Shown piece by piece: positions 31,540-50,825 of a stretch of 64,000 bases of DNA. The DNA lies in contig JAJDAT010000004.1 in NCBI GenBank assembly GCA_029261715.1, forward strand, positions 1-64,000, read 5' to 3'. Origin of the DNA: Nitrospinia bacterium (GTDB lineage Bacteria > Nitrospinota > Nitrospinia > Nitrospinales > JAJDAT01). Under the pieces are notes generated by a model, which was given only the letters and a program-made list of their open reading frames with translations, had not been told where the DNA came from and ran no database searches. Within the stretch, counting starts at the first letter, position 1. The number at the start of each line of letters is the position of its first letter. A program made the position numbers and the translations under genes.

Positions 31540-32340
31540 TTATTTAATCGTAAAATCCGCTTTAGCATCTGCACCACCAGCTACAGTAACTTCTTGAGTC
31601 ACTTCGCCAGCGTAAGGATGCCATGCAACTACTTTGTATTTTCCAGCAGGAACGTCTTTCAAGCTGAAAGCGCCATCAGCGCCAGTAACTTGAAAATATG
31701 GGTTCCAAACGATTCGACCATCAGCTTCCATGAAGTTATGCTGATCGCATTGCAAAAAGAAATGCTTACTTTTCTTCTTTTTAAGACGCTTTAGGTTCTT
31801 GGTAACGTCTGCAGAAGCTCCAACACTTGGCAACGGTTTGTTGAACAAGGTTTTGCGGTTTGCTCCAGCAACATCGTAACCATGTGGATTGTGCAAGGTG
31901 TCGGTGTCTTGATTAGTAATAATCAAGTTACCTTCTTTTTCGCCTTTGTTAGTTTTGCGAACGGTGAAAACTCTAGGAGAAATATCACAGGCTGCGAAAT
32001 CAATTTTTACTGTTTCTTGCTTCCATTCTTTACCTTTAGCGAGATCTTTAATGAAAACAACAGCTCCCTCTAATTTACCGTCTTTAGACTTAATTTTTTC
32101 AATTGTTCGAATCAAACCTTCATTCATAGGATGTTTAGAACAAAATTCTTTATTTTTTTCTTTTGCTAAGTCTTTCTTGATGGTTTGAGGTTTACCTGCA
32201 AAGCTTACTACCCCACTAACCGATCCGCCATTTGCAACCGCGCCGCCTTCATACTTATATTTTGCGGCAAAACTGGTCGAAGCCGTTAAAGCTACTGCGG
32301 CAGTCAAAACAACCGCTCCGGTGAACACTTTTTTAATCAT
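31540..32340 (-). CDS. Secreted cupredoxin-like / carboxypeptidase-regulatory-like domain protein
   Basis: 266 residues. A clear signal peptide ends at TSFA (residue ~25). The middle has a possible type-1 copper set: His residues in LHNPHGYD near residue 150 and C-x2-H-x2-M in LQCDQHNFM near residue 198, resembling but shorter than the plastocyanin/pseudoazurin spacing. The C-terminal ~55 residues (GADGAFSLKDVPAGKYKVVAWHP) form a carboxypeptidase-regulatory-like beta-sandwich. The gene has a strong AAGGAGGAT ribosome site and its own terminator. It follows the giant multicopper oxidase gene by 172 bp with a terminator between, so it is probably transcribed separately. An electron-transfer partnership with the oxidase is a hypothesis. 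Confidence 0.75.
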   Translation of the reverse strand: MIKKVFTGAVVLTAAVALTASTSFAAKYKYEGGAVANGGSVSGVVSFAGKPQTIKKDLAKEKNKEFCSKHPMNEGLIRTIEKIKSKDGKLEGAVVFIKDLAKGKEWKQETVKIDFAACDISPRVFTVRKTNKGEKEGNLIITNQDTDTLHNPHGYDVAGANRKTLFNKPLPSVGASADVTKNLKRLKKKKSKHFFLQCDQHNFMEADGRIVWNPYFQVTGADGAFSLKDVPAGKYKVVAWHPYAGEVTQEVTVAGGADAKADFTIK

Positions 32341-32512: not shown

Positions 32513-35500
32513 TTACTTCATAGATAGTTTTTCTTGCTCTTCTTTAGAAGCAGTTACGCCTTTTGGAGTCACATTACCCAATGGAAGAATTGAATTCTCT
32601 CCCTTAGGTAATACTTTGAAATAACCCCATTGCCCTGCTTGTTGATAAGGCGTTCGAGCATTCAACCAAAGGTAGGTGCCAGGATTATGATAAGCGCCAC
32701 CTGCTCCTTCAGCAATAAAGGCCTGAATATATTCGCCGCCGCCAAATTCTTCGACGTCGATCATATCAGAACCTTCTTGATTAATATGGCGGCGCCATTG
32801 ATGGCCGTCAACATTAAACATTTGGTTTTGCTCGTTATGCGCGCCAAAGACATTGATCATAACTCTATCTCCAGCATGCGCCTTCAACGTAGGCGTTGCA
32901 GGATCTTTATCTGCGGCTACACAAGCTGTGAAAATGTTACCTAATTCACAACCTTCGTCTTCGCGATAAGTCCATGGCTCTAACCGGTAATTAACGCCAG
33001 TCAAACCAGCAACGTTTTGCAGATAAGGCATAAACGATGTACCGATAATGTTATCTTCATCCTGGAAGTACAACGCAAAATCTCTGTAGTTCTGGAGATG
33101 TTGGTTTTCAGGATAAGACTTATCGATAATTACGTCCGCTTTCCAAGAGTTGCCGAGGGTGATATCTTTCCCGGTCTCTGGATCACGATACACAGAACCT
33201 CTTGGTCCAATAATGATTCCGCCATACAACCCATTGCGGACATTACCAAGAAGGTTACCAAAATCCCAGAGCAACGCGCCGTTCAAGTTGTAATCTGGGT
33301 GTGCATAGAAGGTATAGGTCTTGGCTTTACCAGGAGCAACCGTTTGATCGCCTGGGTTATTACCAACATTAATACCTTGAGAATCCATAGGATCGAAAGC
33401 GATGTTATTCGCGTGAATCGAAGCGTTGCCGGATTCCATGCGGTTAGTCAATTTAACTTTGACACAATCGCCCATATTAGCGCGCAATGTCAAAGGATGA
33501 GGCATATGACCCTCGTCCGAAACTTTGCTGATCTCATTGTCGAGAACGTAAATAGCGCCTTCCTCATTTGCAGCTAACAACTTACGCTCAAAGTCCACTT
33601 CAATTTCGTCTTCCGTATTTGGATTGAATTTCAACCCTTTATTTACGGCAGATACACTGAAGTTTTTGACAGGAGCGTCTGCTGGGCAAACTTTGGTTTT
33701 AACTTTTTTAGCAAAGTCTTTATTATTCGGAAGCATTAACAAATCGTCTTGCTTCTTATCATAAACTCGGAAAATACCCCAACTACCTTCACCAAGTTTG
33801 GAAGTACGACCATCATAGAAGAGATAGTCTCCTGCCATTGCTTGGTAACCGCCAGCAGTTGTGGCCATATCATACCGTTCCGCGATACCAATATGAATTG
33901 TATTGGTTACGCGAGAATCGCGGTCGTATCTTTCAGGTCGATAACCATGACCAGAAAGAACAAAAGTATGAGTTTCATTCATCATGCCGTGAAGCAACCG
34001 GAATAATACGCTATCGCCTACGTAAGCGCGAATTAACGGAGTGGTTGGATCTGCATGAGCTTTATTTGAAAACAACAAAGTTGGATCCGGATTAGCTTTC
34101 AACCGAGCCGCCAAAGAGGCCGCACGGAAATTAAATCCACTACCCGTAGTATGAGTGCCACCATTTAAATTTGGAAAAGCAGCATCCATCATATTGTCAG
34201 GCATTTGAAAGGAAATGGATTGCCCTGCGGCGATCGCATTTTCTCGACTCATACCTGGAGGATTACCAGCGCTAATCAATTGCGCCGTGTGAGGCACGGT
34301 GTCATGCAATTGGACAACGATTTCTCGGAAACTTCCACTTCGAGCATAAGCAATCGGCTCGGTTCCTCTAATATCTACAACAGGACCAGACCGAACTTCT
34401 TTACCCGTAACAGGATCATGATAAGTAGATCCCCAAGGCTCAACAATAGTCGAACCAATACCGCCATGCGGCCAAGTGGTCGCGCCAAAAGCGTGATCAT
34501 GCCAGAAAACTAATCCAACATCAGCATCTACCCACATTCGATACCGAACAAACTCAGTGGTAACGATTTCGCCTTTTGGATGAGCTTTTTTCAATGGCTG
34601 GGTCAAATGCAAGGTAAAAATACCATCGCCTTCTAAAGCTCCGTTGTGCGGATCAGTTTTAGGCTTAGGATCCATGCTTTTAATCCAGCGTGACTCTTTA
34701 TTCGCTTCCGTTTCAATACCGATCATAACGTCGGCTCCTTCATGAAATGGAGTCGAATGCTTAGCCATTTGGATTTTAATACTTCTATCTCCAATATTGG
34801 CAGTCTGAATCACATGAGCGTTCATAGGAACAGGCATACCAACATGATGATCATGTCCTTCTTTATCTTTCTTCATTTTCTTATCGAACTGCACATAAGA
34901 GCGCATTGATTGATCGTAAGAAAATCCAGAGATAACACCGTCCGAAGATTGGTTATCAAATTGGAAGAAATGTGGATGGATGTTGACTTTAGACATTTGA
35001 AAGTTTGTAAAGTCATCGTCATTCCACTCACTAGAAAGTACTACGTCTACACAATCATAAACGTTGGCACGGTAAACCAAAGGCTCCGCTTTCTTAGGAT
35101 CGCCTTTTTTCAAAGCCAACTCTTCTTCTAATACATATATCAAACCATATTTATCAATTACCGGAGCAGTATCTCCAACTTGAGGAGTCAACTCGATAGG
35201 CGTGTTGATAAAATGGATCGCATATTGCTTTCTACCCGCTCCAGCTGGGCATAAACTCCAACGACCATGTTCACCTGGTTTAGCAGGAGTCGAGTTTTCC
35301 ATATTAGGACCGGCGTCACCACTTCCAGGCTCAGTGCTGGCATAGGTATCGTCAGGTTGAATATGGAACGGCTCTAACCAAGGAGCGCCGCCATGATGCC
35401 TTGCAAACGGAATCCTCTTACCAAAATGCGGCTTAAAGTGAGGCCATGCTAATTTACCGTTATTTGGTTCAAAAAGAATGGCATGCCGTTTTCCAGGATG

Positions 35501-37465
35501 CGGAGATTTATACTTAGGATTAGGTAACGTAGACTCTCGCTCGGATAGAGCTCGATTGCCTTTCCAACCGTAATCCCAAACAGAACCATCATAAGAAAGG
35601 ATTTGTCCTCGTTCGTCTTCGGTATGACCCGGTTGACCTTGAGGAGGCAACATGTATTTAACCCAATCGCGGATGTTAACGGTGGGCGAATCGGTAGTCC
35701 AATCGCTTGTACCGTCTTTGTCTACAATATTAAACTTCTTTCCAAACCAATCCATAGTCTTACCAGTCAATTGATCGGATGGAACGCCTTTTGGAATACG
35801 TCCTTGCCTATCTGGTAACTCAGCCAAAGGAGGCATAACGTCTGTGCTTCCAAATGGATAATTTCCATATTGAAGGGTGTTATAAACTCTCCAATACCCC
35901 CACATACCGGCAACATAATGATGCGCTACATGGCAATGAAATAAGAAATCACCAGCTAAATGTTGACATAGTCCAGATCCGCATTCAGTTTCCAAATCAA
36001 CAACTTCGGAAGGACCAATAACTTCAACGTCAACACGATCAGAAGTGGTTCTCACTACAGGATATTTAACAGGACCATCCCAAGCGGCTGTAATCATGTT
36101 TTCCAAACTTGGTTCTCGTTTTGGAGCTCGTAACCATCGGATGGAACCACCATGTGGATGATGAGAATGGAACACTTCGCCACCGCCATGAACCAATCGA
36201 AACTTAGCAGGGTCACCCATGTAAGATCGTGGAATCGTGGTTGGAGCGTCGCCAAAAGTATAAGAACTGTAGGCTAACGACTCATCTTCGTAATGAAAAT
36301 GTCTTTCTTGTTGCGCCAAGTTATTGATACCAAACGGTTCACTGCGATAGTTCATCGCGCGAGCAGAAGGACGATAAGCGTCCGTTTGCGGGTCCCGTTG
36401 TGGAATCATTTCACCGTGGCGGTTCAAAGGTCGGAAAGATTCGTCGCCAACCTCATGATACATGAGGATAAACTCACGAAAGTCTCGATTATTTGGTTGA
36501 GCAATCATCATTTCCCAACCACTATCCAAAGGCTCGCCAGTAAAAGGACTCAAATAGGTAGATCCTTTTGGCTCAACAATGAAAGTTCCAATAAGACCTA
36601 AAGAGGAAGGATCACGTCCAGCATGACTTTGGATCATACGTCCGCCTTCTTGCTCATCAATTGGAATTTGCCATTCAAAATCTTGAGATTCTCCTGAAGG
36701 AATAACAGCTCCAGGGGTAGCGGCAGTAGCCGGTTGACCAGTGGAACTAATTATTATTTCAGAACCATTGACTTGAAACGCAATATCTTCGTCTTCAACT
36801 TGGTTTCTTACTTTGAAACGAACACAATCGCCTTGGTTTCCACGAATAACCAATGGCTGAATTAAATCGCCTTGAAGACCATTCGTAATTGCGCCTGGAT
36901 CTAACTCATCTTCACGAGCTGCGGCATTTTTCTCTTCATCCGCGCGAACGCCTTCAATGTTTTTGGTTAAAACATACATATAACCAGGGTAATAATCCCC
37001 CCATTGGTTCAATGTAATTTCTACATTGATAGCCGAAATATCGTATTGTTTAACCGGCGCAGAACTAGCGCAATGGGCTCCTTTATAAGTCTTAGCCGAG
37101 GCTTCAGTCGGCCCAAGCAAAAAGGATTGTCCCATTTGATGAGCGGACCAAGAGTCATGATACATACCACCAGAAGATGCTGGAGCGGCATGCTCTTTTA
37201 GCTCTTGTTTAACTTTACCCATCAACTTCATGAATGTTTTGTCAAGCCGCTGGCGACTGCCATTGAGACCGCTTTCATTTTCTTCACGATCAACTTGACC
37301 TTCCAACTTGTTCAACCATTCTGGATGTTCTGCCGAAGCAACTACGTGTTTCTGTCCTTTATGACCATCGGCCGCAAAAGAACCTGAAACTCCTAGCGCC
37401 AGGAACAAAACCATTCCCAGAGCGGCGACCGGGAAACCCCGTCCGCACAAGAATCGAAAAACCAT
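32513..37465 (-). CDS. Giant six-domain multicopper oxidase (secreted)
   Basis: 1650 residues, far longer than laccases (about 500). A signal peptide ends at GSFA (residue ~31). Three homologous units begin near residues 140 (KQYDISAIN), 745 (KQYAIHFIN) and 1280 (KNFSVSAVN), each ending in W-G-Y/I-W/F-R/K-V, implying six cupredoxin domains. Copper motifs: HSHHPHGG near residue 433, HCHVAHHYVAGMWG near 508, NIHPHFF near 828 and WHDH near 988. Units 2 and 3 lack the HCH motif at their ends, so only one complete set exists, shared between units 1 and 2. The ATG at 37465 is chosen (the frame also has GTG at 37468) because AGGAGG lies six bases upstream. Substrate unknown: Mn(II), Fe(II), Cu(I) or an organic are all possible. 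An HtrA-like protease gene lies 95 bp upstream. Confidence 0.9.
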   Translation of the reverse strand: MVFRFLCGRGFPVAALGMVLFLALGVSGSFAADGHKGQKHVVASAEHPEWLNKLEGQVDREENESGLNGSRQRLDKTFMKLMGKVKQELKEHAAPASSGGMYHDSWSAHQMGQSFLLGPTEASAKTYKGAHCASSAPVKQYDISAINVEITLNQWGDYYPGYMYVLTKNIEGVRADEEKNAAAREDELDPGAITNGLQGDLIQPLVIRGNQGDCVRFKVRNQVEDEDIAFQVNGSEIIISSTGQPATAATPGAVIPSGESQDFEWQIPIDEQEGGRMIQSHAGRDPSSLGLIGTFIVEPKGSTYLSPFTGEPLDSGWEMMIAQPNNRDFREFILMYHEVGDESFRPLNRHGEMIPQRDPQTDAYRPSARAMNYRSEPFGINNLAQQERHFHYEDESLAYSSYTFGDAPTTIPRSYMGDPAKFRLVHGGGEVFHSHHPHGGSIRWLRAPKREPSLENMITAAWDGPVKYPVVRTTSDRVDVEVIGPSEVVDLETECGSGLCQHLAGDFLFHCHVAHHYVAGMWGYWRVYNTLQYGNYPFGSTDVMPPLAELPDRQGRIPKGVPSDQLTGKTMDWFGKKFNIVDKDGTSDWTTDSPTVNIRDWVKYMLPPQGQPGHTEDERGQILSYDGSVWDYGWKGNRALSERESTLPNPKYKSPHPGKRHAILFEPNNGKLAWPHFKPHFGKRIPFARHHGGAPWLEPFHIQPDDTYASTEPGSGDAGPNMENSTPAKPGEHGRWSLCPAGAGRKQYAIHFINTPIELTPQVGDTAPVIDKYGLIYVLEEELALKKGDPKKAEPLVYRANVYDCVDVVLSSEWNDDDFTNFQMSKVNIHPHFFQFDNQSSDGVISGFSYDQSMRSYVQFDKKMKKDKEGHDHHVGMPVPMNAHVIQTANIGDRSIKIQMAKHSTPFHEGADVMIGIETEANKESRWIKSMDPKPKTDPHNGALEGDGIFTLHLTQPLKKAHPKGEIVTTEFVRYRMWVDADVGLVFWHDHAFGATTWPHGGIGSTIVEPWGSTYHDPVTGKEVRSGPVVDIRGTEPIAYARSGSFREIVVQLHDTVPHTAQLISAGNPPGMSRENAIAAGQSISFQMPDNMMDAAFPNLNGGTHTTGSGFNFRAASLAARLKANPDPTLLFSNKAHADPTTPLIRAYVGDSVLFRLLHGMMNETHTFVLSGHGYRPERYDRDSRVTNTIHIGIAERYDMATTAGGYQAMAGDYLFYDGRTSKLGEGSWGIFRVYDKKQDDLLMLPNNKDFAKKVKTKVCPADAPVKNFSVSAVNKGLKFNPNTEDEIEVDFERKLLAANEEGAIYVLDNEISKVSDEGHMPHPLTLRANMGDCVKVKLTNRMESGNASIHANNIAFDPMDSQGINVGNNPGDQTVAPGKAKTYTFYAHPDYNLNGALLWDFGNLLGNVRNGLYGGIIIGPRGSVYRDPETGKDITLGNSWKADVIIDKSYPENQHLQNYRDFALYFQDEDNIIGTSFMPYLQNVAGLTGVNYRLEPWTYREDEGCELGNIFTACVAADKDPATPTLKAHAGDRVMINVFGAHNEQNQMFNVDGHQWRRHINQEGSDMIDVEEFGGGEYIQAFIAEGAGGAYHNPGTYLWLNARTPYQQAGQWGYFKVLPKGENSILPLGNVTPKGVTASKEEQEKLSMK

Positions 37466-37560
37466 CACTACCCTCCTTAACGATTCATTAAAAAAATTAG
37501 AGGTTTAACAAAAACCACTAAAAAACACAAAAAAAAACAGGTAACTATCTTTCCAAACTT

Positions 37561-38937
37561 TTAATTAACTCCTTCAACGGTAATATGAAGGGATTCTTTG
37601 CCACGGAATATTAGCAAAAAAATCGTATCATCAGAAACTAAATCGCCCACAACTTTTTTAAACTCTACCCGCGATTTAATAGACTGCCCATTAATAGCCA
37701 TGATCAAGTCACCTTTTTTAAGGCTAGCCTTTTCAGACCTACCGTCTGGGAAAATATCTGTGACAACCACTCCCTCCTTATCAAAAAGATTGTATTTTTC
37801 TTTTAACACATTACTTAAATCTCTCACCGCTAACCCCAAAGACCTGATTGAGTTTCTGGGAAGCATCACAACTCTTTCTTTCTTTTTAGCAATTCCCATC
37901 GTCACAGGAACAACCTTCTTCTGACCATCGCGAAGAACATGAACATTTATCAACTGCCCAGGGGTTATACCTCCAACAACCCTAATCATAGTTGCTGGGG
38001 ATTTAACATAAGCCCCCCCTACCTTAAAAATAATATCTCCGATTTTTAATCCAGCTTTCTCGGCAGGTTCTCCTTCAAAAATTGCGTTTATGTATACGCC
38101 TTGTCCAAGCCCTAAATTTTCAACCACTTTTTTTTCTTTATCGACCGGTTCAATCCCAACACCCAACCAACCACGCCGCACTTCGCCACTTTCAATTAAA
38201 TCTTTTACAACAGCCTTGACCATGTTAACTGGGATTGAAAAACCAATATTTTGAGCATAATTGATAATGGCTGTATTGATACCTATAATTTCCCCATCAA
38301 GATTTAGTAAAGGACCACCGCTATTTCCTGGATTAATCGAAGCGTCTGTTTGTATAAAGTCTTCGTATCTCGAAATATTAATATTTTCACGGTTCAAACC
38401 GCTGACAATACCAAATGTCATTGTGCTATCTAAACCAAAAGGATTACCAACCGCAATCACAAATTGCCCAACATGTAAATCGCTGGAATCTCCAAATTGA
38501 GCTTCTGGAAGCCGATTTTTCGTTTCAATTTGAACAACAGCTAAATCAGTTTCTTCGTCGGCTCCGAGAACCTTACCTTGAAATTTTTTACCGCCCATCA
38601 AAGTAATTTCGGGCGTACTCATATCTTTAACAACGTGACTATTTGTTACGATCAATCCTCTTTGCCCATCTATGATTACGCCAGTACCCGTATTCGTAGG
38701 CCGTACCCGTCGAATCGAACGAGATTTTTTATTTTTAGATTTTATGTAAGGGGTAATGGTCACAACCGCCGGCCTAGTTTTATCTGCCAAACTAACTAAG
38801 GCAGCTTCCATATCTTTTAAAATCGACAATCCACTCGAAATATCTGCAGCAACCCCATGCCTTGGAAGCGTTAGAATTACTAAAGCACAAAAAACCGAGA
38901 AGAACACTTTCAAAGCCGTACGATTATAAACTTTCAT
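37561..38937 (-). CDS. HtrA/DegP-type periplasmic serine protease
   Basis: 458 residues. A signal peptide ends at HGVAA; the trypsin-like domain contains the catalytic triad as His in VTNSHVVKDM, Asp in EETDLAVVQIE and Ser in NPGNSGGPLLN. Two PDZ domains follow (YINAIFEGEPAEKAGLKIGD and VVTDIFPDGRSEKASLKKGD). The frame is open to 39006, but the internal ATG at 38937 (MKVYNRTALKVFF) gives a proper signal peptide. It would degrade or refold misfolded envelope proteins. It precedes the giant oxidase in the same direction, so it may assist folding of that protein; that is inference. Confidence 0.92.
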   Translation of the reverse strand: MKVYNRTALKVFFSVFCALVILTLPRHGVAADISSGLSILKDMEAALVSLADKTRPAVVTITPYIKSKNKKSRSIRRVRPTNTGTGVIIDGQRGLIVTNSHVVKDMSTPEITLMGGKKFQGKVLGADEETDLAVVQIETKNRLPEAQFGDSSDLHVGQFVIAVGNPFGLDSTMTFGIVSGLNRENINISRYEDFIQTDASINPGNSGGPLLNLDGEIIGINTAIINYAQNIGFSIPVNMVKAVVKDLIESGEVRRGWLGVGIEPVDKEKKVVENLGLGQGVYINAIFEGEPAEKAGLKIGDIIFKVGGAYVKSPATMIRVVGGITPGQLINVHVLRDGQKKVVPVTMGIAKKKERVVMLPRNSIRSLGLAVRDLSNVLKEKYNLFDKEGVVVTDIFPDGRSEKASLKKGDLIMAINGQSIKSRVEFKKVVGDLVSDDTIFLLIFRGKESLHITVEGVN

Positions 38938-39428
38938 CTTTATTTGGATAAGACTCAACAGCGCTAATTTCTCCAAAAAGAAGTAAGGCAAAATGGCCTT
39001 AGCCAATGCGTAATCAAAAACCGGGTTGAAGTAAATTCCCGATTTTAACGGAAAAAAACATAACTTTCAAATATGAATTGGCTATTCTACTTGCAACCTC
39101 GATTCAATTAATAAAAACGACTGCAAAAGGATATTAACTTGGTTTTGAAAGGGGATTCGTGGAGCGTTTTCAAGGTTTTCCTACGCAAAATAACAGCGTA
39201 TTTAAAGCTCATATATGTTAACCTTGGCGAAGCTAAAAAATAAGCTTTGCTATCAAAGAGAGACTTGATTTATATATAGTATTTAAAATCGTGTCAAGGA
39301 AAATATTGATTATTGGCCACTTATCGGAACTTTCCGACCCCTTAATCGTCTCCCACTAGCAGCAAAGACTAAATATCGGAACTGAACGCAAATAAATTTA
39401 GTTATTTAACAGGAGCTTCTCTTAAGTA
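38938..39428. other. Intergenic region between divergent htrA-like and cysH genes
   Basis: No real gene. It contains one copy of a ~160-bp diverged repeat (39077-39235), a small hairpin around 39227-39250 (GCGAAGCT/AGCTTTGC) and a 14-bp palindrome TCGGAAct TTCCGA near 39326. A TCGGAA half-site recurs near 39378, upstream of cysH, and might be a regulatory site. Confidence 0.45.
39077..39235 (+). repeat. Diverged intergenic repeat, copy A
   Basis: Shares ATTCTA-TTG-ACCTCGATTCAAT-AAAAACG and, further on, GAGC-TTTTCAA-TCC-GCAAAA-TA-CG-ATTT-AA-TATG-TAA-CTTG with 43781-43950, with about 10 bp length difference between the blocks. Both copies read on the plus strand and lie upstream of a plus-strand gene. 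Matched blocks are too long and ordered for chance, but no exact alignment was run. Confidence 0.55.
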
Positions 39429-40115
39429 ATGAATCTCAAAGAATTAAATAGTAAAAGTGCGGAAGAAATTTTGGATTGGTCCTCAAAGGAATATTCTGGT
39501 CGGATAGCTTTGGCTTCTAGCTTTGGACTGGAGGATATGGTTTTAATCGACATAATTTCTAAATTACCTCAACCAATTTCTATTTTCACTTTAGATACAG
39601 GTAGACTGCATGAAGAAACATATACATTAATAGATCGAGTCAGATCACGTTACAAACTTGAAATCGTTACCTACTTTCCAGACTCTTCTTCAGTAGAAAA
39701 ACTCTTAAGAGAAAAGGGATTCCTTTCTTTCCGAGAAAGTCTTGAAAACCGCAAAGAATGTTGCCGAATCCGAAAAGTAGATCCTCTAAATCGCGCTCTT
39801 AAGGAATTAAGCGCTTGGGTAACTGGGTTACGTAAAGATCAAAATGTTACTAGGAATGATATACAAGCAGTAGAAGAGGACAAAGATCACCCACCACTTG
39901 TTAAAATAAACCCTTTAAAAGATTGGGCTTCAGGAGATATTGAGAAATACATTCTCAAAAATAATGTTCCAACCAATCCTTTACATAAACAAAATTATCC
40001 AAGCATTGGATGCGCTCCTTGCACTCGATCCGTTGAGCCTGGCGAAGACCCCCGATCAGGTCGATGGTGGTGGGAAAACCCAGAGCACAAAGAATGCGGT
40101 TTGCATCAAAAATGA
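39429..40115 (+). CDS. cysH: Adenylyl-sulfate (APS) reductase, thioredoxin/glutathione dependent
   Basis: 228 residues of the CysH family. Motifs: ASSFGLEDMVLIDI for nucleotide binding, TLDTGRLHEETY, CCRIRKVDPL and YPSIGCAPCTR with the redox-active ECGLH at the C-terminus. The two Cys pairs (CC and C-x2-C) bind a [4Fe-4S] cluster and mark an APS reductase rather than a PAPS reductase. It reduces APS to sulfite for cysteine synthesis. No other sulfate-assimilation gene is adjacent. It is divergent from htrA-like and convergent with an MBOAT gene 67 bp away. Confidence 0.9.
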   Translation: MNLKELNSKSAEEILDWSSKEYSGRIALASSFGLEDMVLIDIISKLPQPISIFTLDTGRLHEETYTLIDRVRSRYKLEIVTYFPDSSSVEKLLREKGFLSFRESLENRKECCRIRKVDPLNRALKELSAWVTGLRKDQNVTRNDIQAVEEDKDHPPLVKINPLKDWASGDIEKYILKNNVPTNPLHKQNYPSIGCAPCTRSVEPGEDPRSGRWWWENPEHKECGLHQK

Positions 40116-40182: not shown

Positions 40183-41574
40183 TTAGAATTGAAAATAAAT
40201 AAACGGTTGATCGCTAAAATCTCCCCCAAAATACATCAAAACGGTTAGCAGAATTATAAAAGAATATCTTAATCCCTTGTGCATTTTTAAGATAATTAAT
40301 GAGTTATTTTTCATCTCTTGAAATAACTCAACCACCAACAAAATCGAAATAATTAAAACTACCTCGATTAAGTTTTCAAAAAAGCTGGGCAAAATTTGAA
40401 AATTATTAAATATGCTGATTAACATTTCATAGGCTTGCTTACCTGAAGACGCCCGAAAAATTAACCACCCAAGGCAAACGAACTGATAAGTTAAAAAAAT
40501 CTGAATAATCGGATTCACTCTATTCCAAACCTTTGAAATATTGTGATGAATTCCAATTAAGATACCGTGATAAACTCCAAAAGATCCAAAACTCCAACTA
40601 GCCCCGTGCCATAATCCACCAAGCAGCATGGTTATAAGAATATTTATGCAAGTTCGTCTAGCTCCTTTTTGATTCCCTCCTAACGGGACATAAAGATAGT
40701 CTCTTAACCAGGAAGACAACGAGATATGCCATCGACGCCAAAATTCTGCAATATTTCTTGAGAAATACGGTTGTCGAAAATTCTCCATAAGCTCGATGCC
40801 CATGACTTTTGCCAATCCAATGGCCATTAAGGAATAGCCTAAAAAATCACAAAAAATTTGAAAACTGAAAGCGTAAACTGCTATCAACACTTCGCTTCCA
40901 TTGTGAAGACTTAATTGAGAAAAAATAGGATCAACAATCCGAGCCAGATTATCCGCAATAAAAATTTTTAAAAATAACCCCCAATAAAACAACAAGGCGC
41001 CTCGAAAAAAACTTTCTACTTTAATAACGCGAGGTTGAAGTATTTGAGGAAGTAATCGAGTTGCTCTTTCAATGGGTCCTGCGATCAGTTGTGGGAAAAA
41101 GGCCACATAAAGAGCAAAATCAAAAAAGTTTCTTTCAGCTTGAATTTTTCCTCGATAAACGTCGATGGTGTAGCTCATTGTCTGAAAAGTATAAAAAGAA
41201 ATTCCTACTGGCAAGATTATTTCAAGAAAATACGGTTGGACGTTCAAACCTAAAAGTCTAAATAAATCACCAAAACTCTCAGCAAAGAAACCAAAGTATT
41301 TAAAAACTCCTAATAAAGTCAGATTGAAAGCTACGCTAATAACAACGAATCGCTTTTTTATTTTTTTATCCTGATTCGATAAGATTTTAAGACCACAAAA
41401 ATAATCACAAAGAGTTGATACAAATAACAAGAATAAATACTTCCAGTTCCAACTCCCATAAAACACATAACTAGCAACCAGTAATAATCGGTTTTGATAG
41501 ATATGAGGTAAGGTCAAATACAGGCTGTAAAAAAAACAGAAGAAAAGAAGGAACTCTATGGAGTGAAACAACAT
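40183..41574 (-). CDS. MBOAT-family O-acyltransferase (AlgI/DltB-like), copy 1
   Basis: 463 residues with about ten membrane helices. Family motifs are FFPQLIAGPIERA, WRRWHISLSSWLRDYLYVPLGG and, holding the presumed catalytic His, LGGLWHGASW near residue 320. AlgI-type proteins move an acyl group across the membrane to an exported polymer and usually work with a periplasmic SGNH protein. The SGNH gene directly upstream (41690-43630) fits that pairing. This pair lacks its own ACP. It is clearly paralogous to the MBOAT at 47541-49004. Confidence 0.92.
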   Translation of the reverse strand: MLFHSIEFLLFFCFFYSLYLTLPHIYQNRLLLVASYVFYGSWNWKYLFLLFVSTLCDYFCGLKILSNQDKKIKKRFVVISVAFNLTLLGVFKYFGFFAESFGDLFRLLGLNVQPYFLEIILPVGISFYTFQTMSYTIDVYRGKIQAERNFFDFALYVAFFPQLIAGPIERATRLLPQILQPRVIKVESFFRGALLFYWGLFLKIFIADNLARIVDPIFSQLSLHNGSEVLIAVYAFSFQIFCDFLGYSLMAIGLAKVMGIELMENFRQPYFSRNIAEFWRRWHISLSSWLRDYLYVPLGGNQKGARRTCINILITMLLGGLWHGASWSFGSFGVYHGILIGIHHNISKVWNRVNPIIQIFLTYQFVCLGWLIFRASSGKQAYEMLISIFNNFQILPSFFENLIEVVLIISILLVVELFQEMKNNSLIILKMHKGLRYSFIILLTVLMYFGGDFSDQPFIYFQF

Positions 41575-41689
41575 TGATTATTTCTCAATTCAGGAAACTT
41601 TGAATAACCGATTTAGTAAAAACGGGAAAGGAGTTTATTTTTTAAGGACTTGAAATTATTTAGATTTAAATATCAAAAGGATTTCAACT

Positions 41690-43630
41690 TTATGGTTCAA
41701 GAGAGCCTTTCATATTCATGAGAGATTCAATCTTTTTTTCGTAGTTGGAAAAAGCCCCAAACGAACTGTACCCTGACCTAATTGTCTTAATTTTTTTTAC
41801 AAGTTCTAAAGCTCGGTCATAATCTTTAATTTCGACTAAATAATCTAGAGCTTTTTTATAAATAGATCTAACCAGCAAAGGAGATGAATAATACAAGTTT
41901 TTAAAGTTTCGTAAATTTAATTCTTCTGGATAAGATTTTAGATCACGTCCAATTATAGAATTTGCAAAAAGATAAGACAGATTATACTTTGGTCCAGTTT
42001 TTAGAAAAACTATGACCTCTTTAAGACTAGAAACTATTGGATTATCAATATGTCTATCGTTAAAAAAACGTTTCCACCAACCAAAGTCAAAATCTTTCAA
42101 CAAAGGGTTTAGCTGAAATGAAACGCTCTCATACTTTTTAGCCAAATCATCTTTCCCTTGTGCAAAAAGAATTTGGGCTAAGACCCAATAAGATAGTGAA
42201 AAATCTGGACTCTTTATAATTACATCTCTAAGTAAACTTTCTACTTCCGCTCTTATTTCTGTTGTTAAAAACTCTTCTTCAAACTGCAGGAAGCTTCCTA
42301 ATGAGAACTCTACTGCTGACGTGGTCCATTCTTCCTTTTTTCTAATAAAATCCGTATAAATGCATTTACTATTAAAAACAACGCACCCCGAACAAATTAA
42401 ATCTTCAATTTTATTACTTAAAAATAAACTCTTTAAATATTCAATTTCTAATCGTTCAGAACTTATTGTTTGCTTTGCAAATGGTTTTGGTAATTCAGGA
42501 TCTATTTTTAACTGGTCATTCAATGACAGTTTTACGCTATATGCTAAAATTCGATTACCGCTCCCCGTTAAATGCTCTTTATCACTCTTGAAGAAAAATT
42601 TCTTTCCTTCCGCATTTAATGTCACCCCATTATTTATATAAAAAACATTGAGATATGACTTTGCTAACTCTTGGTAAAGCTTATCTACTTGCTGGATCAA
42701 CAAAACTCTTTTTTTATCCGCTTCACATTCTTTACGATTTTCTCCAGAGCAGAAAGATGGACTAGACATAGATCCATTATTTTCCAATTCTGTCGGCAAA
42801 CTAATCAAACCGACAGAAATACCATCTTTATCTGCCCTTCGAATCACTTTCTGAAGTTCTTTTTTATAATAGAAAAGATTATGAGGCTGGAACCTATAGG
42901 GCAAAGGTTTGCGACTAGGACGAGGAATTTTCATAAGAGAGTTTTTTAACAGAACTGTTAAATTTTGTCCCCATTTAACATCTTGCACCCAGGCTCCAGA
43001 ATTGCAAAATTGAGCCGAACTAGATATTCTCGTCCCTAATTTTGTAGCGTCTTTAGAACCAGCCATAATTAGAATCATATCTGGTTTAAATTGTAATGCC
43101 TCATGCTCAAAAATAAATCTTACATCGCAAATACCATATCCCCAGTGACCAAAATTGAGTACTTGGTAAGAACGATTAGAACTTTTGGAGCTGTTTAACA
43201 TTCTTTCAAGATGCCGCGGATAATTAGCTTCGCTAGGCGCTCCTTCTCCAAGAGTCGTAGAATCTCCTAAAGTAATAATTCGGAAAATATTCGATTCGGC
43301 GATTTTATTGAAATAAGGTCCTTCATATCCCCATTTATTAATAATAGTATCTCCCTTAGCATGGCGAACCAAACCTTCTAAACCAAATAAAGAATATTCT
43401 CCTTTAATTTGCGTCGAAGTCTTTCCTTTTACTATTTCGGCAAAATAATAGTTATCATCTGCAAAAATATTTTTTCGGATATGATAAGGCAAGGGCGGGG
43501 ACGCTTCAATATGCGCAACTCTGTCTGTATACTGAGGAAATTTATCAACGTAATAATCAGCAAAAGCTTCCAACGCAATAAAAAAAATTAAAACTAAAAT
43601 TGGCTTCTTAAATTTATTTTTTTTCTCCAT
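41690..43630 (-). CDS. SGNH/GDSL hydrolase-like protein with C-terminal helical repeats, copy 1
   Basis: 646 residues. An N-terminal membrane anchor (residues ~10-25) is followed by an SGNH domain: IITLGDSTTLGEGA with the nucleophile Ser near residue 122, the Gly/Asn blocks around FGHWGYG and IMAGSKDAT, and the Asp/His pair in SDKEHLTGSGN near residue 348. The last ~250 residues are predicted helical and TPR-like (YDRALELVKKIK). By analogy to AlgJ/AlgX and PatB, it would transfer or remove an acyl group on a glycan in the periplasm. It is upstream of and paired with MBOAT copy 1; the layout mirrors 47541-50825, but the gene order is reversed. Confidence 0.82.
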   Translation of the reverse strand: MEKKNKFKKPILVLIFFIALEAFADYYVDKFPQYTDRVAHIEASPPLPYHIRKNIFADDNYYFAEIVKGKTSTQIKGEYSLFGLEGLVRHAKGDTIINKWGYEGPYFNKIAESNIFRIITLGDSTTLGEGAPSEANYPRHLERMLNSSKSSNRSYQVLNFGHWGYGICDVRFIFEHEALQFKPDMILIMAGSKDATKLGTRISSSAQFCNSGAWVQDVKWGQNLTVLLKNSLMKIPRPSRKPLPYRFQPHNLFYYKKELQKVIRRADKDGISVGLISLPTELENNGSMSSPSFCSGENRKECEADKKRVLLIQQVDKLYQELAKSYLNVFYINNGVTLNAEGKKFFFKSDKEHLTGSGNRILAYSVKLSLNDQLKIDPELPKPFAKQTISSERLEIEYLKSLFLSNKIEDLICSGCVVFNSKCIYTDFIRKKEEWTTSAVEFSLGSFLQFEEEFLTTEIRAEVESLLRDVIIKSPDFSLSYWVLAQILFAQGKDDLAKKYESVSFQLNPLLKDFDFGWWKRFFNDRHIDNPIVSSLKEVIVFLKTGPKYNLSYLFANSIIGRDLKSYPEELNLRNFKNLYYSSPLLVRSIYKKALDYLVEIKDYDRALELVKKIKTIRSGYSSFGAFSNYEKKIESLMNMKGSLEP

Positions 43631-45468: not shown

Positions 45469-47283
45469 ATGACAAAACCTCACTTTCAAGAATCTATTGA
45501 GAACCTCCAAACAATAGCCGAAAACCTAAGCCCTGCACCAAGCTTAAACTCTTATTTATCTGTAAAAACAAAGATTCTTGAGATAGTTTCCGCAATCCCC
45601 ATTGAGCAAAAAACCCGAATAGCCATAATATCCACCTTTTCAATTCAACCTTTGGATCTATGTCTTATTTTGGAAAGCGCCAAGCAAGGAATCGCCTTAG
45701 AAGTGTATGTTGGAGAATACAATCAAATTTTCCAAGAAACTTACCAACTTGATAGCGGTTTAAATCAATTCAAACCGGATGCAGTGTTTTATTTCTGTCA
45801 ATTTGATCGACTCATTCCCCATAAAGGAGTTTCGGCAATTGACAAACCCGATATTGAAGAATTAAATAAAAAGATTTTAGATCTATACCATCAGTTTAGA
45901 AATCACCACAATTCCCTCTTTGTTTTTAGCAACTTTATTATCCCAATTAGTTTCCCTTATAGCAATTTACCGTCTGATGATTTATCTCAGTCTCTAAATA
46001 ATTTTAATCAAAAATTTAATCTAAACTTTCAAAACCTAGAAAATGCTTGCGTATTTGATTTAGAAAACTTAGCCCAATTCCATGGAAAGGGAAACATCAC
46101 ACATCCCTTATTAAAATTTTCCTCTGACCTTTATTTTAGCGAAGGCTTCATGGTAGAGGTCGGCAAAAAATTAGCCACAGTCATCACAAGTTATAAGTCT
46201 AAGGCTAAAAAATGTCTGGTACTGGATTGCGATAATACTCTTTGGGGGGGAATTGTTGGCGAAAGCGGTATCGACGGAATTAGACTATCCGATACAGGTC
46301 CAGGAAGCGAATTTTACGAACTACAAAAAAGAATAAAATCTTTGTATAATCGCGGAGTTATTCTTGCTTTGAATAGCAAAAACAACATGACCGACGTACT
46401 AGAAGTCCTTCAGAAACACCCTTATATGCTTCTTAAAGAAAAAGATTTCGCTTCTATTCAGGTTAATTGGGAAAATAAAGCCGAAAATATGATCACTATC
46501 GCTAACGACCTGAATATTGGACTTGATAGCATGTTATTTCTGGACGACGACCCAATTCAGAGAAAACTAGTCCGAGACCTCCTGCCTGAGGTCAAAGTCG
46601 TCGAGCTACCTAAAAACCCTGTCACGTACTTTCAGATAGTTCAAACTCTTACTGATTTCGAAACTATTAGGCTAACTGACGAGGATAAAAAGCGAGGCTT
46701 AAGTTATGCCGCTCAAAAAGAGAGAAAAGTTTTAGCGTCTAAATCTGAATCTTTCGATGAATATTTAAAAAGCCTCAACACTGTGATTGAAATTAATCCG
46801 GCTGACACCAAAGAAATAGCCAGACTTTCGCAGTTATGCCAAAGAACAAATCAATTTAATTTATCCACAAAAAGATATACCGAGTCCGAGCTAAAAGACT
46901 ATTTAAATTCATCAGATAAAAAAATATTCTCGTTAAAATCCAAAGACATTTTTGGCGATGATGGAATTGTCGGACTTGGAATTGTAAATGTTGACGACTC
47001 AACAGAATGGAAACTCGATTCATTCTTAGTAAGCTGTAGAGTTTTAGGACGAAATATAGAAAACGCTTTTATTGATTACATTTCAAGAATGGGATTAAAA
47101 TCTTCCGTTACTGTATTAAAGGCAGAATATTTACCGACTGCAAAAAACTCTCAAATAAAAACTTTTTTTGAACGCGTAAACTTTATAAAAAAAACAGAAC
47201 AAAACCATAAAATTGAATTTGAACTTGAACTAACCAATTATAAGAGGCGAACGTTTCCTGGCATACAGGTTGTCGAAAATTAA
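45469..47283 (+). CDS. FkbH-like HAD-IIIC protein (acyl/glyceryl loading onto ACP)
   Basis: 604 residues. The N-terminal ~240 residues are an SGNH-like domain; the HAD core begins at LVLDCDNTLWGG (Asp-x-Asp-x-Thr near residue 252) with NSKNN and LFLDDDPIQRKLV as later HAD motifs; the C-terminal ~180 residues are a GNAT-like domain (LAARL... KSKDIFGDDGIVGLGIV). In polyketide pathways, FkbH proteins take 1,3-bisphosphoglycerate and load a glyceryl group on an ACP. The ACP gene starts 3 bp after this stop, exactly the expected partner. A different phosphorylated acyl substrate cannot be ruled out. Confidence 0.88.
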   Translation: MTKPHFQESIENLQTIAENLSPAPSLNSYLSVKTKILEIVSAIPIEQKTRIAIISTFSIQPLDLCLILESAKQGIALEVYVGEYNQIFQETYQLDSGLNQFKPDAVFYFCQFDRLIPHKGVSAIDKPDIEELNKKILDLYHQFRNHHNSLFVFSNFIIPISFPYSNLPSDDLSQSLNNFNQKFNLNFQNLENACVFDLENLAQFHGKGNITHPLLKFSSDLYFSEGFMVEVGKKLATVITSYKSKAKKCLVLDCDNTLWGGIVGESGIDGIRLSDTGPGSEFYELQKRIKSLYNRGVILALNSKNNMTDVLEVLQKHPYMLLKEKDFASIQVNWENKAENMITIANDLNIGLDSMLFLDDDPIQRKLVRDLLPEVKVVELPKNPVTYFQIVQTLTDFETIRLTDEDKKRGLSYAAQKERKVLASKSESFDEYLKSLNTVIEINPADTKEIARLSQLCQRTNQFNLSTKRYTESELKDYLNSSDKKIFSLKSKDIFGDDGIVGLGIVNVDDSTEWKLDSFLVSCRVLGRNIENAFIDYISRMGLKSSVTVLKAEYLPTAKNSQIKTFFERVNFIKKTEQNHKIEFELELTNYKRRTFPGIQVVEN

Positions 47284-47286
47284 CTT

Positions 47287-47511
47287 ATGGAAGAAAAACT
47301 CAAAAAAATATTTGTAGATTTATTTAACTTTCACGATTTGCAAGATCACATGACACGAGACGATATACCAGACTGGGATTCTATGCGTCACCTTAGTCTA
47401 ATTCTAGAAATAGAAAAAGAATTTGACCTCAGTTTATCTATTGAAGACTCCATTCATATGGTTTCCATAAGAGCTATTAAGGAAATCATATCGGAACATG
47501 GAGATATCTAA
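47287..47511 (+). CDS. Free-standing acyl carrier protein
   Basis: 74 residues, short and acidic, with the phosphopantetheine site D-S-M at residues 31-33 (Ser32 in PDWDSMRHL). Its place between fkbH-like and MBOAT genes suggests it carries the acyl group, loaded by the FkbH-like protein and used by the MBOAT. It begins 3 bp after the fkbH-like stop and ends 29 bp before the MBOAT start. Confidence 0.9.
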   Translation: MEEKLKKIFVDLFNFHDLQDHMTRDDIPDWDSMRHLSLILEIEKEFDLSLSIEDSIHMVSIRAIKEIISEHGDI

Positions 47512-47540
47512 AATCATTTAGACCTTAAACATCCACAATA

Positions 47541-49004
47541 ATGGTTTTTCACAGTTTTGCTTTTTTAAAATTTTTCGTCATCACCTACTTTATACTTTTT
47601 GTCATATATCTTATTTCAAAAAATCTTAAAGATTCATCCACGCCGCACTTAATAAACAAAACATTTTTATTAATTGTCAGCTATTATTTTTATGCTTATT
47701 GGGACGTTCGGTTCTTATCTCTAATTATATTATCGACAGTCATTTCATATTTTTCTGGTCTTTTTATTTCAAAGGCTAGAGAGAAAAAGCAAAAAAAACG
47801 TTTTCTTTTCATTGGGCTTGCTCTTAATTTAGGAATATTAGGCTTCTTCAAATACTATAATTTTTTTACCGAATCTTTCAACGCTCTAACGGATAGCTTC
47901 GGAGTCTCTCTTCCCTTACTTAATATTATTTTACCGGTTGGAATATCCTTCTATATATTTCAGTCCATGAGCTATAGCTTGGACATTTATTTTAGAACGG
48001 TAAAACCCGCAAACAATTTTCTCGACTTGGCGTTATTTATATCTTTTTTCCCGCAACTAGTAGCCGGACCTATTGTTAGATCCAGTCATTTTTTGCCACA
48101 ACTGGAACGCTACTCCCCGCTAACATTAAAAAACTTTAGCGATGGATTTCAGATATTTCTATTTGGATTATTTTTGAAAGTAGCGGTCGCCGATAATGTA
48201 GCTCCCATTATTGACCCAGTATTTAAAGATCCTTCCGATTATTCGAGCGCAGTTATCTGGTTCGCCCTTTTGGGTTATTCAGTCCAAATATTCTGCGATT
48301 TCTGTGGATATTCTGAAATGGCTATTGGGCTTGCGCTAACAATCGGTTTCAAAATTCCACCGAATTTTAAAACTCCCTTTTTATCTTTAAACATCGCGGA
48401 TTTCTGGCGTCGTTGGCATATTTCTATGTCGTCCTGGTTTCGGGATTACTTATTTATTCCCTTACAGCTTTCTAACCTAGGCATATTCTCGCGCGAATCT
48501 CGAAACACTCTTTATAGAGCGACGATAAACTTTCTAATTGTCATGGGATTGATCGGACTTTGGCATGGTTCAAGTTGGAAGTTTGTGCTATTTGGACTTT
48601 TTCACGGTATCGGTTTGACAATCAACCACATATTATCTACATATCGTAGAACAAAAAATTCCCATATGGTAATTAACGTTATAAATTGGACAATCACCTT
48701 TTTATTCGTCCTATGCGGTTGGGTTTTATTTAGAGCCGAAAATATGTCGCTAGTTTTGGAAATGTATTCAAAAATGTTTCTGTGGGAAAGTGTCCAAAAT
48801 ATTGGAGAGTTTCAATTTAATTCCATCCTCTATCTTTTTGCTGGAATAATGGCGATCCATTTTTGGCAATTTAAACGCAATTCGGAAAACTTTATTTTTA
48901 AACCCGGTACGATAGCCTTTTCATTTTATATATTTTCACTTGTGAGCCTTATCTACTTATTCTCTCCAAGAAATTCCGTAAATTTTATTTATTTTCAATT
49001 TTGA
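47541..49004 (+). CDS. MBOAT-family O-acyltransferase (AlgI/DltB-like), copy 2
   Basis: 487 residues with about ten membrane helices. Motifs FFPQLVAGPIVRS, FWRRWHISMSSWFRDYLFIPL and the presumed catalytic His in IGLWHGSSW near residue 340 match AlgI/DltB. Unlike copy 1 it carries a longer loop (LSNLGIFSRESRNTL) between the last two motifs. The ACP gene immediately upstream is the likely donor, an arrangement like the DltB/DltC pair for D-alanylation. The stop TGA directly abuts the next gene's ATG, so the SGNH protein is translated with it. Confidence 0.92.
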   Translation: MVFHSFAFLKFFVITYFILFVIYLISKNLKDSSTPHLINKTFLLIVSYYFYAYWDVRFLSLIILSTVISYFSGLFISKAREKKQKKRFLFIGLALNLGILGFFKYYNFFTESFNALTDSFGVSLPLLNIILPVGISFYIFQSMSYSLDIYFRTVKPANNFLDLALFISFFPQLVAGPIVRSSHFLPQLERYSPLTLKNFSDGFQIFLFGLFLKVAVADNVAPIIDPVFKDPSDYSSAVIWFALLGYSVQIFCDFCGYSEMAIGLALTIGFKIPPNFKTPFLSLNIADFWRRWHISMSSWFRDYLFIPLQLSNLGIFSRESRNTLYRATINFLIVMGLIGLWHGSSWKFVLFGLFHGIGLTINHILSTYRRTKNSHMVINVINWTITFLFVLCGWVLFRAENMSLVLEMYSKMFLWESVQNIGEFQFNSILYLFAGIMAIHFWQFKRNSENFIFKPGTIAFSFYIFSLVSLIYLFSPRNSVNFIYFQF

Positions 49005-50825
49005 ATGGAACTCACTGTTAATAATTTTTTAAAAAAAACAGCTTTTACTATTCTTGGAATCATCCTTAGCCTCGCTTTCCTTGAAGTTTTTGTAAGAAGC
49101 TTTTTTTATCAAAATATAACTCCTAGTCTTACGGCTCCAGGCTTTGGTATTCCAAGCGCAATGCGGCCTAACTTCAAAAGCGAAGCTCTTAATTCTGTCG
49201 GGGTGAAATACAAGATTCAGACAAATAATAATCGGATTAGGCGAAGTGGTCCCATCGGATATAAGAAACCTCCAAACACATTTAGAATCTTGTGTATTGG
49301 GGACTCCATGACATTCGGATTATCAATATCAAATAATGAAACCTATTCTTATTATCTGGAGGAAATTCTAAATAAAAATGCAGAAGAGGTTAAATTTGAA
49401 GTTCTTAACGCTGGAGTTACAGGCTGGGAACCAGTTGATTACTTTCTCTATTTAAAAAACGAAGGAATCAAATATTCTCCCGACTTAGTCATAGTTGGCA
49501 TAGACGCCTCGGACATGGTTAACTTAAAGTCCAATTTTTTTGAATTTGAAAAGTTAAGCGCTAAGAAATCGCCCGATGTCGTCAACATTTCATTAATAAA
49601 TCCAAACATCAAACCATACTTTGACCAAGTTACGGAAACTATCAGGGAAGGGATTTTAACCCTCCCTTTCTTTTTACAAATATCGGAAGTTTCGCAATTT
49701 CTTAATTTAGTTCGAAAAAACCTTTCTATTGATTTCACTCAACCCCCAAAACCGACAGATTCTTTAACTAAACTAGTCTCTAGCAAAGCTATTAATTCTA
49801 AAGATATCGTCAACTGGGATATTGCAATTGATTCTGAAAGACTAGAGTTCGATCAATCAAGCTTATCAGAAACCCAAGACATCTTATTTGCCATCATCCA
49901 AAACAAAATTAAAAACCTCGCAAAAGAAAAAAACTTTAAATTGGCCTGGGTAAAAATGCCATACGCACCGGAAGTGTTTGGCACTATAGATCCCAAAAAA
50001 GATAAGGACAAATCACCGCTTCCTTCTTCAAAGTTTATAAACTTATTAAAAGAATTTAAAGCTTTTAGCGGCAAAAATCCTATTCCCTTATATTTCCCCC
50101 ACGATATTCATTTCACTCCTTCAGGCAATCGTTTATTTGCCTATTTACTACTCAATTCTCTGATCGAATCAAAAAAAATTGATGGAAAATATTTAGACGT
50201 CAATACCCCAACAATTATCCAAGAAATTGAAAAGTCCAATGGGGAGATAGAGGAAAAGATAAAGCAATTGCCCGTTTGGAATTTAATTTTAGCAAAAAAA
50301 TATAAAAGCCTTCATCAACTCGCACGTGCAACAGAAACGCTAAAACTTTATCTCGAACAAAAACCTAATTCAGGCGAAGGATTATTCCAAATGGGATTAA
50401 TCTATTACGATCTAAAACAATGGGATCAAGCTTTAAAGTATCTGAGCCGGGCTTTCAAATTCAACAAGTTCTGGGGTCCTGAAATTCTAAATTTGCAGGC
50501 TAAATCTTATTATAGAAAAGGCGACCTTTTAAATGCAGAAAAGCTTTGGTATCAAGCCATAAACTTGACTCCCAACAATTCAAAACTATATAGAAACTTA
50601 GGGAGCTTGTACTTTGACAATGAGCGTTACAAACAGGCGGTGGAGCAATACAACATATCCCTACGACTAAATCCTAATGAATATAAAGTCTATTTAGTTT
50701 CAGGACTCGCTTATCTAAAATTACAAGAACACGAAAAAGCTATTACGATGTTCCAAAATGTCGTAAGACTTCAACCTAACAATGCTATGGCTAAAGGAGC
50801 TTTATTCCAATTAACTCAAAAATAG
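49005..50825 (+). CDS. SGNH/GDSL hydrolase-like protein with C-terminal TPR repeats, copy 2
   Basis: 606 residues. One membrane helix (residues ~10-27) is followed by an SGNH domain: ILCIGDSMTFGL with the nucleophile Ser near residue 100, NAGVTGWEPVDY, and the Asp/His pair in HDIHFTPSGN near residue 365. Residues ~430-606 hold four recognisable TPR units (for example LFQMGLIYYDLKQWDQALKY and LYRNLGSLYFDNERYKQAVE). The domain order and length match the minus-strand copy at 41690-43630. It should act in the periplasm on the acyl group delivered by the MBOAT; the TPRs may dock the export machinery. Confidence 0.88.
   Translation: MELTVNNFLKKTAFTILGIILSLAFLEVFVRSFFYQNITPSLTAPGFGIPSAMRPNFKSEALNSVGVKYKIQTNNNRIRRSGPIGYKKPPNTFRILCIGDSMTFGLSISNNETYSYYLEEILNKNAEEVKFEVLNAGVTGWEPVDYFLYLKNEGIKYSPDLVIVGIDASDMVNLKSNFFEFEKLSAKKSPDVVNISLINPNIKPYFDQVTETIREGILTLPFFLQISEVSQFLNLVRKNLSIDFTQPPKPTDSLTKLVSSKAINSKDIVNWDIAIDSERLEFDQSSLSETQDILFAIIQNKIKNLAKEKNFKLAWVKMPYAPEVFGTIDPKKDKDKSPLPSSKFINLLKEFKAFSGKNPIPLYFPHDIHFTPSGNRLFAYLLLNSLIESKKIDGKYLDVNTPTIIQEIEKSNGEIEEKIKQLPVWNLILAKKYKSLHQLARATETLKLYLEQKPNSGEGLFQMGLIYYDLKQWDQALKYLSRAFKFNKFWGPEILNLQAKSYYRKGDLLNAEKLWYQAINLTPNNSKLYRNLGSLYFDNERYKQAVEQYNISLRLNPNEYKVYLVSGLAYLKLQEHEKAITMFQNVVRLQPNNAMAKGALFQLTQK

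Follow-up and report, generated by a model that had tools for sequence, protein, structure and literature searches.

A copper centre placed across domains 2 and 3 is the layout of all the bacterial and archaeal six-domain oxidases analyzed by Vasin (2013; PMC3600357), whose list includes MnxG and proteins from Leptothrix, Pseudomonas, haloarchaea, and Geobacter (GSU1252, 1652 aa). MnxG works together with MnxE/F subunits (PMC5622069). In nitrite oxidizers, a periplasmic multicopper protein was described in N. gracilis that is conserved in Ca. Nitrospira defluvii and similar to the Bacillus SG-1 enzyme; its gene lies within the NXR cluster, and a manganese-based (Mn(III)) protection from reactive oxygen was proposed for it (Lucker 2013; PMC3578206). 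A study of nitrifier MAGs reported MoxA/MnxG/McoA-type genes in almost all of the genomes studied, with their function unproven (PMC11995701). Here, we compare with these systems a six-domain multicopper oxidase (MCO) encoded in a 64,000-nucleotide stretch, here called the window, of a Nitrospinales genome.

Results

The gene is read from a GTG start codon, and an in-frame ATG one codon on gives an alternative end at 37465 (Table 1). In our best explanation, the protein is exported, as predicted from its sequence, to the periplasm or the cell surface.

Table 1. Coordinates in the window of the MCO, its parts, and its conserved neighbors
Feature	Coordinates	Strand	Basis or remark
Six-domain MCO, 1651 aa	32513..37468	-	single intact ORF
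Sec-type signal peptide, aa 1-33	37370..37468	-	by eye: hydrophobic core, then SFA/A
Unit 1 (domains 1-2), ~aa 130-575	35744..37081	-	hhalign
HSHHPH, aa 434-439: T1 His434, trinuclear His437 and His439	36152..36169	-	alignment
HCHVAHHYVAGM, aa 511-522: trinuclear His511/513; T1 Cys512, His517, Met522	35903..35938	-	alignment
Unit 2 (domains 3-4), ~aa 735-1258	33695..35266	-	hhalign
HPH, aa 831-833: trinuclear ligands, domain 3	34970..34978	-	alignment
WHDH, aa 989-992 (His990, His992): trinuclear ligands, domain 3	34493..34504	-	alignment
Unit 3 (domains 5-6), ~aa 1259-1645, no complete copper site	32534..33694	-	hhalign
cup266: exported cupredoxin-like protein with CarboxypepD_reg domain	31540..32340	-	conserved downstream partner of MCO
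HtrA/DegP-family periplasmic protease	37561..39006	-	conserved upstream neighbor in Nitrospinaceae
CysH-type (P)APS reductase	39429..40115	+	conserved flank

A sequence-only reading of this DNA had proposed that the protein consists of three homologous two-domain units, and hhalign of the sub-alignments bears this out, with units 1, 2, and 3 matching one another at a probability of 99.8% and E-values of 1e-29 to 4e-29. The threefold repeat is further backed by an invariant Cys pair found at the same place in each unit (C133/C215, C740/C806, and C1261/C1335). The same reading had listed four surviving motifs (HSHHPH, HCHxxHH...M, HPH, and WHDH) and assigned them to a single copper set that units 1 and 2 make up together. 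Both points stand: the T1 set is H434, C512, H517, and M522, all eight trinuclear His are present (437, 439, 511, 513, 831, 833, 990, and 992), and the T1 together with half of the trinuclear ligands lies in domain 2, the other half being in domain 3, so that, as judged from these residues, the MCO is predicted to carry one full T1 and trinuclear set. An alignment of 37 sequences (the window MCO and 36 homologs, mean identity 77%) shows no variation at any of the 12 canonical ligands, and they are retained in the six Nitrospirota homologs examined, at 54-61% identity. It is this invariance that makes the case for the motifs strong; the excess of HxH (7 against 2.6 expected from shuffles, p ~0.014) is weak taken alone. 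The further statement that unit 3 appears to have lost all its ligands is right about the copper site and goes too far about the residues: the unit alignments show no complete copper site at the equivalent positions of domains 1, 4, 5, and 6, but unit 3 retains isolated His, for example H1352, that form no site. The MCO is best understood as three fused two-domain oxidases in which copper was kept only at the unit-1/unit-2 interface; on a simple reading, a fused trimer has three possible interfaces, of which ceruloplasmin kept 6/1 and the class of the window MCO kept 2/3.

Over the six domains, the motifs run in the order HxxHxH, HCH, HxH, HxH, and not in the order HxH, HxH, HxxHxH, HCH over three domains that defines three-domain laccases. 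All four relatives checked by sequence motifs (Streptomyces sp. NBC_00335, Halalkalicoccus jeotgali, Priestia megaterium, and the homolog on contig C30 of the source genome) share the order of the window MCO. The permuted order pointed out by the sequence-only reading is real, yet it is not unusual, being the layout of PMC3600357, seen in MnxG-type, haloarchaeal, and Streptomyces relatives and known as that of bacterial manganese-oxidase-like proteins. An artefact of assembly or annotation, in which a fused or rearranged gene would fake this order, has next to no chance of being the explanation and was dropped. Nothing turned up in its favor: equal length and the same order recur across dozens of independent genomes, and the source genome itself holds a second copy, on contig C25, that is 87% identical to the window MCO and has the same length and order.

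Among solved structures, MnxG of Bacillus sp. PL-12 is the best match (PDB 9bxa; E 7e-90 with the single sequence, 9e-107 with a profile). Alignment to MnxG had been proposed as a check on the sequence-only reading; the profile alignment is collinear with 9bxa from domain 1 through domain 5, and in it the motifs for T1 and the trinuclear site line up between the two proteins. The solved protein is an H340A mutant, and its residue 340 aligns with His517 of the window MCO, the second T1 His. The structure of MnxG being available, the MCO is not an uncharacterized oxidase as a type, as had been suggested; the accompanying suggestion of a metal oxidase is plausible. An AlphaFold2 model of units 1-2, made from a 35-sequence alignment, has a mean pLDDT of 52.9 with domain 2 unfolded, and for this reason we do not use it to claim that the ligands converge. 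The best structural match of this poor model is 9bxa (Z 17.8, 595 residues, 23% identity), and it also matches coagulation factors (Z up to 14), ceruloplasmin (~12), and two-domain laccases (~11.5). By analogy with 9bxa, the ligands of domains 2 and 3 would converge.

The nearest named loci belong to Nitrospinota MAGs of the same order as the source genome, which is the sole member of its family in our sample. A TIGR03478 search of the source genome for NXR gave weak matches only. The view that the genome has no NXR was dropped, as the last 31 residues of NxrB sit at a contig edge, which suggests that NXR was cut by the assembly; because this fragment is present, the marine host is most likely a Nitrospinales nitrite oxidizer. 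Within the order, the MCO occurs in 53/64 genomes (27/28 of the good ones), often in two or three copies, and a search with the MnxG family model did not find it in 11 genomes of sister orders. Among 148 sampled Nitrospirota genomes, 40 carry the MCO at ~51-62% identity: it is present in 24/24 genomes with a strong NxrB match (E at most 1e-200) and in 16/124 others (Fisher p ~2e-17, from a table compiled by hand from listings), counts in which the genomes share ancestry and are not independent events. Some of those 16 genomes carry NxrB fragments, and NXR may be missing from some of them through assembly.

The two MCO copies of the source genome, in the window and on C25, are sisters in the tree. 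A division into two clean orthologue groups, one htrA-linked and the other ECF-linked, was dropped, as copies pair within a genome (source genome, OFTM7). Contig C30 (L067:5034-10433, minus strand) encodes another six-domain protein of this kind (1799 aa), which is closer to Pseudomonas MnxG; its two best stretches score 323 and 298 bits with the MnxG family model, and matches in genomes of the same order reach at most ~45 bits each. MCO genes more than 70% identical to the window protein also occur in MAG contigs labeled Poseidoniales archaeon, Acidobacteriota, Verrucomicrobiales, and Alphaproteobacteria (L011, L038, L039, and L047), probably as binning contamination.

In cup266, residues H150, C198, H201, and M204 (C-x2-H-x2-M) are invariant in 23/23 sequences, and the model of the protein is good (pLDDT 85); its fold matches that of small laccases weakly (E 6e-3). 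A cupredoxin gene adjoins the MCO in ~23 Nitrospinota loci and is found beside it in most of the Nitrospirota loci checked, with the C-x2-H-x2-M motif kept. cup266 is likely to be the partner of the window MCO. A cupredoxin-like protein that has both a CarboxypepD_reg domain and the motif C-x2-H-x2-M is encoded beside the MCO in two phyla (window; L029, L050, L055, and L083-L087), and at certain Nitrospirota loci as many as three such genes follow one another.

A common order of genes in Nitrospinaceae is cysH, htrA, MCO, cup266, a rubrerythrin-family gene, an ECF sigma gene, a second MCO, cytochrome c, an alternative NxrC, and a second cupredoxin. The window keeps the first four and continues with exopolysaccharide genes, and on C25 a distance of ~15-19 kb separates the MCO copy from altNxrC and the cupredoxin that goes with it. 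Rubrerythrin-family and divergent ECF sigma genes stand between tandem MCOs at L006, L009, L018, L019, L024, L033, L036, and L045. The exopolysaccharide-type cluster directly downstream of cup266 is long (window ~7203-31328) and encodes a Wzz/GNVR kinase, a polysaccharide synthase, glycosyl- and methyltransferases, and a protein with weak similarity to outer membrane proteins of the EpsL/PEP-CTERM-associated type. Elsewhere in the window are genes for an FkbH-like protein, an MBOAT-like protein, and an SGNH/GDSL-like protein that has TPR-like repeats (45469-50825; MBOAT-like, SGNH/GDSL-like, and TPR-like assignments by eye) and a second MBOAT and GDSL-like pair (40183-43630; Pfam), which suggest polysaccharide or lipid acylation.

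Discussion

We favor, with some confidence, the explanation that the protein is an exported, MnxG-like MCO of the domain-2/domain-3 class, most likely a periplasmic oxidase of Mn(II), Fe(II), or Cu(I) with a protective role. An electron from the substrate would enter at the T1 copper (H434, C512, H517, and M522) and be handed on by Cys512 to the His residues on either side of it (His511 and His513) and to the trinuclear site, where O2 would be reduced to water. Oxidation of a reduced metal ion in the periplasm could in this way protect the cell envelope of the nitrite oxidizer, and the adjacent cupredoxin may pass electrons or handle copper. We infer the three-dimensional assembly of the site, the oxidase activity, the substrate, and the role of the cupredoxin; Fe(II), Mn(II), and Cu(I) are indistinguishable as substrates from sequence. 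The rubrerythrin and HtrA neighbors fit a stress role, and the cupredoxin neighbor, together with the cytochrome c and alternative NxrC neighbors seen in relatives, fits a role in electron transfer. Several observations count against the favored explanation. The protein scores 112 bits with the NCBIfam MnxG equivalog NF041487 (Pseudomonas type), for which the cutoff is 3100; among the genes adjoining the window MCO (HtrA, cup266, and CysH), none was recognized as MnxE/F-like; ECF sigma and rubrerythrin genes are absent near both MCO copies of the source genome; and no member of the Nitrospinota has been shown to oxidize Mn (PMC11995701).

A narrower form of this explanation, a dedicated Mn(II) oxidase that yields Mn(III/IV) as a true functional MnxG, could draw on Bacillus MnxG being the best characterized homolog, on the Fe-Mn-rich habitats that harbor these lineages (PMC11995701), and on the protection from ROS by Mn(III) already proposed (PMC3578206). 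We think it rather unlikely: identity to MnxG is only ~23% and the score falls below the MnxG cutoff, the C30 protein is the better MnxG candidate in the source genome, and Mn oxidation has not been shown for any member of the group. The MCO might instead be a periplasmic electron sink of nitrite oxidation, fed by the cupredoxin and by cytochrome c/alternative NxrC with no metal substrate, and serving to scavenge O2 or tune redox conditions near NXR. The tandem MCOs of Nitrospinaceae beside c429 (three Cytochrom_C stretches, Pfam), altNxrC, and nxrCup287 speak for such a sink, as do the invariant H and C-x2-H-x2-M set of the cupredoxin partner and the presence of the MCO in 24/24 sampled Nitrospirota genomes that match NxrB strongly against 16/124 others. 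That co-occurrence is, however, confounded by shared ancestry, the neighborhood in the window is no NXR cluster, characterized non-nitrifier relatives that share the fold are metal oxidases, and bypassing a proton-pumping oxidase would presumably waste scarce energy, all of which leaves the sink improbable in our judgment. We put forward equally tentatively, as a doubtful idea, that nitrite oxidizers of both Nitrospinota and Nitrospirota have a dedicated periplasmic module made up of the MCO and the cupredoxin, in which electron exchange between the two would couple the nitrite-oxidizing chain to the reduction of O2 or the oxidation of a metal.

Our analysis adds to the cited literature that the MCO is near-universal in the order, that a cupredoxin gene usually comes next to it, in Nitrospirota as well, that the MCO often occurs in tandem, the copies being separated by rubrerythrin-like and ECF sigma genes, and that the MCO is found in each of the sampled Nitrospirota genomes that match NxrB strongly. 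We found no mention of the ECF sigma/rubrerythrin linkage in PMC3578206, and did not find the cross-phylum cupredoxin linkage described in the cited literature. With the permuted order already explained, the finding as first posed is ordinary. The question that it raises is why, in two phyla, nitrite oxidizers have retained multiple MCO copies under strict conservation, with a cupredoxin alongside. If the MCO oxidizes Mn or Fe, abundant marine nitrite oxidizers would join nitrogen and metal cycling; if it draws electrons from the cupredoxin, it would represent an unrecognized branch of nitrite-oxidizer electron transport.

Comparison with known systems

Two-domain small laccases assemble as trimers whose chains are separate and whose three interfaces are all active. 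Their unit is equivalent to one of the three MCO units, whereas the window MCO is one chain with one predicted active interface. Ceruloplasmin/hephaestin resemble the window MCO in being six-domain fusions with T1 and trinuclear chemistry. Bacillus MnxG likewise has its T1 in domain 2 and divides its trinuclear ligands between that domain and domain 3, although identity is ~23% and the lengths differ (1227 vs 1651 aa). The protein of N. gracilis and Ca. Nitrospira defluvii, compared by description, very probably belongs to the same family; in N. gracilis, it is encoded in the NXR cluster, whereas the copies of the source genome lie by exopolysaccharide genes (C4, window) or on C25. The MCOs of Leptothrix, Geobacter (GSU1252), Pseudomonas, and haloarchaea, likened here by their description in PMC3600357 (Vasin 2013), also have the trinuclear site at domains 2/3 and T1 in domain 2 only, and several are similar in length to the window MCO. 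Unlike these named proteins, the close relatives of the window MCO are found in Nitrospinales and Nitrospirota.
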